The notes beneath the pieces are model-generated. The model did not search any database, was not told the origin of the DNA, and saw only the letters and a list, made by a program, of their open reading frames with translations. From Riemerella columbina (lineage in GTDB: Bacteria > Bacteroidota > Bacteroidia > Flavobacteriales > Weeksellaceae), in NCBI RefSeq assembly GCF_030517065.1, contig NZ_CP103950.1:1-64000 (forward strand): 64,000 nt of DNA, written 5' to 3'. Shown here in pieces: positions 5,126 through 25,781 of this stretch. The position numbers were made by a program, and so were the translations under genes. How positions within the stretch are numbered: position 1 is the first letter of the stretch; the number at the start of each line of letters is the position of its first letter.

Positions 5126-5186
5126 CTATTCTTCTCTCGCTCACCTTCCTAAGCCCCTCTCAGAAACTTCGTCCGATTTGCGAGTG

Positions 5187-5216
5187 CAAAAGTAAAACTT
5201 ATTTTTGAAATGACAA
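5187..5216 (-). promoter_or_regulatory. rrn promoter P1 (closest to 16S)
   Basis: Minus strand: TTG (complement of 5214-5216), 19-nt spacer, TACTTTTG (complement of 5187-5194). This fits the Bacteroidota -33/-7 consensus TTG-N17-23-TAnnTTTG. The predicted start near 5180 gives a leader of about 140 nt. The segment 5175-5226 is nearly identical to that around P3. Confidence 0.85.
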
Positions 5217-5284
5217 AATATTTTTTAATATTTTTTCAGTAATCTTTTAAGCTTCTCTTGCGCTCCGTTTTTGAATTCGGACTG

Positions 5285-5314
5285 CAAAGATACAACTTAT
5301 TTTTTAACTACCAA
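5285..5314 (-). promoter_or_regulatory. rrn promoter P2
   Basis: Minus strand: TTG (5312-5314), 19-nt spacer, TATCTTTG (5285-5292). Located 98 bp upstream of P1, with the same spacing as P1 and P3. Confidence 0.8.
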
Positions 5315-5384
5315 ATTTTTTGTAAAAAATTTTTATCTTACCTTTCGTTCTCTTTCGCCGCTCACCATCTCTGATTTGCGAGTG

Positions 5385-5414
5385 CAAAAGTAAAACTTAT
5401 TTCTGATATGACAA
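5385..5414 (-). promoter_or_regulatory. rrn promoter P3
   Basis: Minus strand: TTG (5412-5414), 19-nt spacer, TACTTTTG (5385-5392). About 50 bp around it (5372-5425) repeat the P1 region with only two or three mismatches, which suggests P1 and P3 arose by duplication. Confidence 0.82.
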
Positions 5415-5487
5415 AATATTTTTTAATCTTTTTTTAAAAAATATTTCCTTAAATTCAATACCGCTCTACTCTCTCGTAATGAGGGTG

Positions 5488-5518
5488 CAAAAATACCCCT
5501 TACTCCTCAATCCTCCAA
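5488..5518 (-). promoter_or_regulatory. rrn promoter P4 (most distal)
   Basis: Minus strand: TTG (5516-5518), 20-nt spacer, TATTTTTG (5488-5495), 103 bp upstream of P3. The spacer is more GC-rich than those of the others. The rest of 5520-5670 is AT-rich with no gene seen. Confidence 0.7.
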
Positions 5519-5673
5519 ATCTTTTTACACCTTTTTTTACCCTATTATTACTAACACCCTGTTAATCAATGCTAAAAATTTTATACTCCCCCTGAAATAT
5601 AAAATACGGGATTGTCTGATGTACTATATATACTATAAGTATACACATATAAAAGTATATGAGTGGTTTTTTA

Positions 5674-23860: not shown

Positions 23861-25183
23861 CTACGAACTGGGGGAAGTTAATTTTGAATCTACTTCCTCC
23901 GTATGGCGTTTCCCAAAGGCGATCCACAGCAAGGCACTGATGAGCAACAACAACGGATAAAATGAATAGCTGAGCAAAGTTAAATATTGGATTTTCTCTT
24001 CGCTGAGGGCAATCAAGATGAGTACCTGCGCGCCATATGGCAACACGCCCTGCACCACGCACGAAAAAATATCTAATACCGATGCCATATTTTTGGGTTG
24101 GATACGAAAAGTTTCGCTGATGGTTTTTGCCACTTTGCCCGAAATAATGATGGAAATCGTGTTGTTTGCCGTCGCCATATCCACCACTGCCACCAAGCTC
24201 CCCACGCCCAACAATGCCGTGCGATAGCCTGAAATCCGCTGTTTGATGGCACTCAAAATATAGGTAATGCCACCCGCTTTTTCCACCATCGCTGCCAGTC
24301 CGCCTGTGAGGAGCGAGAGGAGGAAAATTTCTTGCATACTCGTAAAGCCTTCGTAGATTTTTTTGCTGAGCCCCATCACATCTAAACCGCTCAAAATCAA
24401 GCCTAAACCTCCGCTAAACGCCACACCGATCAGCAATACCAAAAAGACATTAACGCCCAATAACGAAAGGACAATCACGAGCAAATACGGCAATGCCAAG
24501 AGCCAATTTCCGCCATCGTTTTGAGGAAGATTGGGCACGGTGGAGAGCACCGCTTCTTGGGTGAAAACAATGTAAAGCACGATGGACAACACCGCTGCTG
24601 GCAAGGCAATGGCGATATTGGTTTTGAATTTATCCTTCATAGAACAGCCCAAAGATTGCGTTGCGGCGATGGTGGTATCGGAAATCATCGAGAGGTTGTC
24701 GCCGAGCATCGCACCGCCCAAAAGCGCTGCCCCAATATAATTGGCATCTACGCCACCTTCGGCAAAGCCCATCGCCACAGAACCGAGCGCCACAATCGTG
24801 CCCACAGAAGTCCCCGAAGCTATGGAAATAAACGCGGCAATCACGAAAATCCCCACAGGAATATACGCCAGCGGCACCCATTGCAAACCGTAATTAACGA
24901 TGACCTCCACGCTTCCCACCGATTTTGAAACCGTAGCAAACGCTCCTGCCAGTAGGTAAATAATGCACATACTCAGGATTTTATGGTCGCCGCAGCCCGA
25001 GAGAAATTGTTCCACTTTGTCGTTGAAACTGCCTTTAAACAGGATAAAAGCGGCGATAATTCCCACCAAAACCGCCACAGGGGAAGGCAAGGCGTAAAAA
25101 TCACCAAAATAAATGCCGCAGCCTAAAAAGACCAGCACAAAAATCAACAAGGGCAAAATGCTTGTAAAAGATACCGTTTTCAT
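23861..25183 (-). CDS. NhaC-superfamily transporter, probable methionine transporter MetT
   Basis: 440 aa from ATG 25183 (19 more upstream codons are open but begin in the leader). About 11 hydrophobic helices with NhaC-type segments (IASGTSVGTIVALGSVAMG, LGGAMLGDNLSMISDTTIAA, VDMATANNTISIIISGKVAK). By sequence it belongs to the Na+/H+ antiporter NhaC superfamily. In that superfamily MetT proteins were proposed as methionine transporters because their genes follow S-box riboswitches. An S-box-like element lies 146 bp upstream here, so methionine uptake is more likely than Na+/H+ exchange. The assignment is inference; the family is secure. Confidence 0.8.
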   Translation of the reverse strand: MKTVSFTSILPLLIFVLVFLGCGIYFGDFYALPSPVAVLVGIIAAFILFKGSFNDKVEQFLSGCGDHKILSMCIIYLLAGAFATVSKSVGSVEVIVNYGLQWVPLAYIPVGIFVIAAFISIASGTSVGTIVALGSVAMGFAEGGVDANYIGAALLGGAMLGDNLSMISDTTIAATQSLGCSMKDKFKTNIAIALPAAVLSIVLYIVFTQEAVLSTVPNLPQNDGGNWLLALPYLLVIVLSLLGVNVFLVLLIGVAFSGGLGLILSGLDVMGLSKKIYEGFTSMQEIFLLSLLTGGLAAMVEKAGGITYILSAIKQRISGYRTALLGVGSLVAVVDMATANNTISIIISGKVAKTISETFRIQPKNMASVLDIFSCVVQGVLPYGAQVLILIALSEEKIQYLTLLSYSFYPLLLLISALLWIAFGKRHTEEVDSKLTSPSS

Positions 25184-25246
25184 TTTCAATTTGTTATGTA
25201 TTAAATTCAACTGAGTTGTAGCGAAGTTTTTCCTCGCCATAACGCG

Positions 25247-25278
25247 ATCAAAGACCTCTTAGGCAAGCCTTGTTTGAT
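25247..25278 (-). promoter_or_regulatory. hairpin in the transporter leader
   Basis: ATCAAA (25247-25252) pairs with TTTGAT (25273-25278), enclosing AGGC/GCCT. It lies between the S-box-like element and the start codon and could serve as its expression platform. No T-tract follows, so classical termination is not evident. Confidence 0.4.
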
Positions 25279-25329
25279 AGAAAAAACGGTACATATTGGG
25301 GTAAGTATCAACATTTTTTCCAGAACTGG

Positions 25330-25395
25330 CTTATCATTTTTAGCACCTTGCTTGTTGTTGCAGGTTGCTACCTCCCTCCGAGGTTCTTGATAATA
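25330..25395 (-). ncRNA. compact S-box (SAM-I)-like riboswitch
   Basis: On the minus strand, in order: TTATCAAGA, ACCTCGGAGGGAGGT, AGCAACC, TGC, AACAACAA, GCAAGGTGCTAA, TGATAA. These are the conserved blocks of SAM-I riboswitches in the right order. P1 forms from TTATCA/TGATAA. P3 forms from AGC/GCT, CC/GG and TGC/GCA with loop AACAACAA. P2 is reduced to ACCTC/GAGGT, lacking the usual GGCCC loop, and no P4 is visible. It begins at the predicted transcription start of the NhaC-type transporter gene. It may be a compact variant or a decayed copy. Confidence 0.68.
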
Positions 25396-25400
25396 GACCG

Positions 25401-25433
25401 CAAATATAGGGAATTTTGTTTGTATGATTCCAA
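25401..25433 (-). promoter_or_regulatory. promoter of the S-box-like leader and transporter
   Basis: Minus strand: TTG (25431-25433), 22-nt spacer, TATATTTG (25401-25408). The predicted start, 6-7 nt downstream, falls at the first bases of the riboswitch P1 stem near 25394. Confidence 0.7.
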
Positions 25434-25781
25434 ATTTTGGATTGAAAGTTTGAAAAATTTGTGAGATAATAAACTTGCAGATAATTCCCCTCTTTAAAAA
25501 AGAGGGGTGGCACACAGTGACGGGGGGTTGCCGAAAGGTATTTAGCTTCGTTCAGTCGCAAGCTCTTGTCAGATTTAATATTCATCATTTAAAATTGGGC
25601 AACAAGCCTGTGTACTGGGCGAAGGCAATTTTTAAATCTTTCGCTTTCCAACAATGATTTCCCTTTATTTTTTATAATTTAGCCGAATGAAATTTTTGTG
25701 TAGAAGTGGACTTTTTTATGGAGTTCCGCTTGATGAAAACAAAAATTCAACGCTATATTTATAATCAATATCTACCTGAGA
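25434..25781. other. intergenic region upstream of the DUF1304 gene
   Basis: 348 bp with no convincing gene on either strand. It contains palindromic repeat copy B (25487-25507) and its tail. The minus-strand frames here (25207-25515, 25340-25588) cross the riboswitch and repeats and are spurious. Confidence 0.6.
25487..25507 (+). repeat. palindromic repeat copy B
   Basis: Perfect arms CCCCTCTTT and AAAGAGGGG around AAA, followed on the plus strand by TGGCACACAGTGACGGGGGG. It has the same layout as copy A, but in the opposite orientation on the far side of the transporter gene. Confidence 0.65.

Follow-up and report, generated by a model that had tools for sequence, protein, structure and literature searches.

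The minus strand of the window (the whole stretch of DNA analysed here, 64 kb from Riemerella columbina) carries, in the direction of transcription, a promoter, a full-length SAM-I/IV aptamer and a gene (23861 to 25183) encoding a transporter of 440 amino acids. The protein belongs to the NhaC family of Na+/H+ antiporter-like transporters, with 66.5 bits against PF03553 (cut-off 23) and 84.5 bits against the NhaC equivalog model TIGR00931, which is below the cut-off of 370. A score below the equivalog cut-off would fit a related transporter with another substrate. We take the protein to be a probable MetT (methionine uptake), following the association between S-boxes and MetT; by this analogy and from the genomic context, methionine is the presumable substrate.

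The promoter (25401 to 25434) follows the Bacteroidota pattern TTTG-N22-TATATTTG, with the -33 TTTG at 25434-25431 and the -7 box TATATTTG at 25408-25401. Nine matches to this pattern were found in the window versus 3.9 expected. In Flavobacterium, TAnnTTTG is located at -12 to -5 (PMC9723704), and this position, applied to the box in the window, predicts a transcription start near 25396, three nucleotides ahead of helix P1 of the aptamer, in agreement with an earlier note on this DNA which had placed the start at P1. TAnnTTTG-like boxes also recur ahead of the aptamers of relatives. Upstream of the promoter (25440-25600, minus strand) lies a repeat, including the palindrome CCCCTCTTTTTTAAAGAGGGG, of which eight more partial copies occur in the genome. 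Five further matches to the promoter pattern are clustered at 5177-5519 upstream of an rRNA operon, four of them on the operon's strand with a spacing of about 100 nt, which suggests tandem promoters.

Identity and architecture of the aptamer

A search of the 64-kb window with all Rfam models assigned the minus-strand segment 25304-25398 to RF01725 (SAM-I/IV). The match covers model positions 1-99 of 99 and scores 57.0 bits, i.e., 16 bits over the curated gathering score of 41.1; with E-values of 1e-6 for the whole window and 4.7e-9 for 301 nt, a match by chance is improbable. It is the sole riboswitch match above a curated cut-off in the window. At the same place the SAM-I model RF00162 reached 28.4 bits and stayed under its gathering cut-off of 44.4, and no second match to RF01725 or RF00162 was found in the 2.04-Mb genome. 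The earlier note had proposed running SAM-I and SAM-clan models on a compact S-box-like element that might escape them: the SAM-I model indeed fails, but the SAM-I/IV model recognizes the element from end to end. The interval that had been given, 25330-25395, ends about 20 nt early inside the element, leaving P5 and the 3' strand of the pseudoknot PK2 outside. Read from 25393, the minus strand is UUAUCAAGAACCUCGGAGGGAGGUAGCAACCUGCAACAACAAGCAAGGUGCUAAAAAUGAUAAGCCAGUUCUGGAAAAAAUGUUG.

Two alignments were used, A1 with 18 relatives from the family of the window and A2 with 19 relatives from two families. Helix P1 is formed by the 5' strand UUAUC (25389-25393) and the 3' strand GAUAA (25331-25335), as indicated by the RF01725 match and by A2, in which two of the five pairs show compensatory changes. 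P2 (25370-25384) is a 5-bp hairpin without internal loop, and four of its five pairs change on both sides. P3 with its loop (25342-25369) contains the near-invariant core AGCAACC/GGUGCU in both alignments; since P3 hardly varies, its pairing is neither supported nor opposed by covariation. The pairing of P1 and P3 that the earlier note had described is confirmed. The P5 hairpin (CCAGUUCUGG, 25320-25329) was derived from the RF01725 match and A2. PK2 joins CAACA in the P3 loop (25353-25357) with UGUUG in the 3' tail (25309-25313); it is paired in all 19 sequences, with compensatory changes in three of five pairs, and its forms include CAACA/UGUUG, AAACA/UGUUU, UAACG/CGUUA, UAACA/UGUUA and UAAUA/UAUUA.

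Across A2, P1, P2, P3, P5 and PK2 are paired in 98.8% of the cells (P5 in 96.5%, PK2 in 100%, both with compensatory changes), and ten pairs carry double changes. None of 500 shuffles reached the covariation score, and sliding the partners by one to three columns reduced pairing to 31-40%. The identity and architecture of the aptamer thus rest on sequence and covariation.

The blocks TTATCAAGA, GGAGGGA, AGCAACC, AAGGTGCTAA and GATAA, read earlier as conserved S-box elements, do occur in this order on the minus strand. GGAGGGA, however, is located within the P2 hairpin and is missing even in congeners. The sequence of P2 varies freely among relatives with the pairs being kept, so that this block is a coincidence and is ruled out as a conserved S-box element. 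The description of P2 and P4 was correct in that P2 is a plain 5-bp hairpin without a SAM-I-type P2 pseudoknot and P4 is missing, only unpaired nucleotides lying between P3 and P1 in the window; what was regarded as lacking is the normal shape of SAM-I/IV. The SAM-I traits (P2 kink-turn, P2-loop pseudoknot and P4 hairpin) are absent from the window and all aligned relatives, and a single short P2 replaces the SAM-IV traits (split P2a/P2b and PK-1) in both. With no part missing, the element belongs to a known Rfam family and stands in front of a probable methionine transporter gene; the copy in the window is probably functional. A complete SAM-I/IV RNA can look truncated when the interval ends 20 nt early.

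Distribution and associated genes

Of 323 genomes in the family to which the window belongs, 103 carry RF01725, in two sequence types, that of the window (AGCAACCUGCAA..) and CACCAACCGAG.. A model built on the sequence type of the window (R1) had matches in 30 of the 398 genomes sampled from the order and in 30 of 400 Flavobacteriaceae-type genomes (f3; 22 genera). Across the class it gave two matches in 295 sampled genomes, both from members of the order that had already been found. In the genomes surveyed the P4-less aptamer subclass is confined to Flavobacteriales, usually before a gene for an NhaC-family, MetT-like transporter. In the window's genus, aptamer and NhaC gene occur together in five of six genomes and the remaining one (G316) is devoid of both; the pair recurs across a second family, presumably the Flavobacteriaceae. 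The RF01725 match and the genome surveys hence uphold the earlier proposal of a lineage-restricted SAM riboswitch of the S-box clan before an NhaC/MetT-type gene. A false lead, the minimal SAM aptamer, gives way to a defined Flavobacteriales subclass with a conserved gene partner.

Several further observations were made in these surveys. In one congener (G312, L192) an in-frame TAA interrupts the transporter match, which may point to a broken gene. Members of the CACCAACCGAG.. type belong to the same family and are located before other genes (L010-L012, L016, L019, L020, L027, L029), and two copies of this type sometimes lie close together (L106, L108). An exact-word scan of viral contigs matched five contigs. 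In the large-genome genus g6, and likewise in g10, a short ORF of 41-42 or 62 amino acids comes after the aptamer and precedes a TonB-dependent-receptor-like gene, named by eye; in g6 this arrangement takes the place of the transporter gene. The short ORF lies about 46-53 nt after PK2 (L005, L006, L017, L018, L021-L024, L026, L028, L031, L099, L137, L145-L155, L158) and nearly always ends with MCCC, one residue and the stop codon, one g10 copy having MYCCC. In an alignment of 18 g6 copies, all differences in the three Cys codons are synonymous (TGT/TGC); over the whole g6 ORF, single-nucleotide codon differences amount to 664 synonymous and 695 nonsynonymous ones. The arrangement resembles a SAM riboswitch combined with a putative leader peptide that would sense cysteine.

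Proposed expression platform

For 34 leaders, duplex energies of two pairings were compared with those of dinucleotide shuffles of the leader: an ON pairing of the aptamer 5' half with the leader, and an OFF pairing of the leader with the start-codon region. Group statistics were based on one leader per genus (23 genera). The ON pairing was significant at p <= 0.05 in 19 genera and not in the other four (Fisher p 3e-19 for all 23 combined); the OFF pairing was weaker, with seven genera significant singly, 16 not, and a combined Fisher p of 1e-7. As related genera are not fully independent, both combined values overstate the certainty. In the more conservative swap test between genera, none of 20000 swaps was as good as the native ON pairings and two of 20000 were as good as the native OFF pairings. 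The controls gave no significant signal, neither for start-codon pairing in 38 ordinary genes of the window (p 0.31) nor for the aptamer 3' half (p 0.09) or a reversed leader (p 0.16). In 22 of 23 genera both pairings share at least 6 leader nucleotides and are therefore mutually exclusive. In one leader (L207), for instance, AAAAGGAGAUAGCAA pairs with UUGCUAUUUCCUUUU, and the same strand pairs with GAAAUGGC at the start codon; L207 and another Flavobacteriaceae leader, L217, have alternative helices of 15-16 bp. In two congeners (L003, L014) the free fold corresponds to the ON form and the fold with the aptamer imposed to the OFF form. These leader pairings support a translational shut-off by SAM in the group.

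In the window's own leader, a candidate anti-aptamer strand (25246-25269), proposed from the family pattern, could pair without SAM with 25392-25369, from the P1 5' strand through P2 (-23.6 kcal/mol, p 0.020 versus shuffles). A candidate sequestering strand with the core UACCGUUUUU (25273-25293) could pair with the start-codon region 25190-25170 (-15.3 kcal/mol, p 0.013), and this pairing is seen in the leader fold with the aptamer imposed. Anti-P2 pairing alone was rejected as the switch (p 0.107 with a 60-nt leader); p fell to 0.020 when the leader was taken in full and the P1 5' strand was added. The two strands do not overlap, but the two duplexes cross, so that forming both at once would need a pseudoknot; we infer that they compete. 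With 125 nt the leader is longer than the other 33 (41-79 nt), and its unconstrained fold shows no anti-aptamer helix, the P3/PK strand pairing with codons about 8-15 instead. The translational model is well supported for the group and, on account of the long leader, the non-overlapping strands and this different free fold, only moderately for the copy in the window.

Taken together, high levels of S-adenosylmethionine probably cause the SAM-I/IV riboswitch to turn off the MetT-like transporter, with translation as the most likely level of control; ligand, direction of control and transporter substrate are deduced. Transcription would start just before P1. With SAM bound, P1, P2, P3, P5 and PK2 would form, and a downstream leader strand would be available for pairing with the start-codon region, so that translation is blocked. 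In the absence of SAM, the aptamer 5' half (P1 5' strand, P2 and J2/3) would pair with a complementary strand of the leader; this would open the aptamer and keep the start codon accessible. On balance, we lean towards the view that the P4-less SAM-I/IV subclass of the Flavobacteriales shares an apparently undescribed platform, in which one leader strand has two alternative partners: it either invades the aptamer 5' half, at the P1 5' strand or P2/J2-3 in place of the P1 3' strand that is usually targeted, or it covers the start codon.

It is rather unlikely, though conceivable, that a functional SAM-I/IV aptamer acts in the window through another output, such as termination that depends on Rho or on pausing, or decay of the RNA, and that the start-codon pairing is incidental. 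The unusually long leader with its non-overlapping switching strands would agree with this, as would the nearest congener (G315, L004), which is weak for both strands (ON p 0.06, OFF p 0.65). However, both pairings of the window reach p values of 0.01-0.02 and are strong in the group, and no intrinsic-terminator-like site was found in the leader, so that an intrinsic terminator platform was rejected. A SAM-clan variant shifted to a related ligand, e.g., S-adenosylhomocysteine, is very improbable, as the core follows the SAM-I/IV consensus and an uptake-type transporter suits feedback by SAM and not the clearance of SAH. Least credible is a decaying, non-functional S-box remnant, suggested solely by the small size and the missing P4: the full SAM-I/IV architecture with core and pseudoknot is intact and conserved, all near-invariant positions of the subclass are retained, PK2 and P5 are complete, a promoter precedes the element and the gene behind it is open, and the full RF01725 match with the covariation in A2 rules out a minimal or decaying S-box.

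In the literature searched, largely without subscription journals, we found no published work on flavobacterial or Chryseobacterium SAM riboswitches and no description of the subclass boundaries or the expression platform; no priority is claimed. Judging by the same literature, translational shut-off by SAM offers a testable model for bacteria whose riboswitch output is little studied.

Comparison with known SAM riboswitches

In its proposed output, the riboswitch resembles the translational SAM-I riboswitch of Xanthomonas, in which SAM control is exerted mainly at translation (PMC7270179), but the latter belongs to another aptamer class and controls another gene, the met operon. With SAM-I (S-box, RF00162) the element shares the ligand-core blocks UUAUCAAGA, AGCAACC and GGUGCU. 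It differs in having neither kink-turn P2, P2 pseudoknot nor P4; P5 and PK2 are in place and replace P4 and the P2 pseudoknot of SAM-I. With SAM-IV (PMC6890682) it has the missing P4 and the presence of P5 and PK2 in common, but its P2 is not split into P2a and P2b and PK-1 does not exist. According to published comparisons (PMC2864571; PMC6890682), SAM-I/IV RNAs (RF01725; Weinberg 2010, PMC2864571; PDB 4L81) have neither PK-1 nor an internal loop in P2. The element agrees with them in the unsplit P2, the P1/P3 core, the downstream P5 and the pseudoknot PK2 that links the P3 loop to the 3' tail. The crystallized SAM-I/IV example (PDB 4L81) possesses a P4 hairpin, CACCGGAGACGGUG (sequence in PMC5393176), in contrast to the window and its Flavobacteriales relatives. 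P4 is also absent from the Rfam consensus structure and therefore not decisive for membership in RF01725; compared with the crystallized example, the element of the window is thus a P4-less SAM-I/IV RNA.
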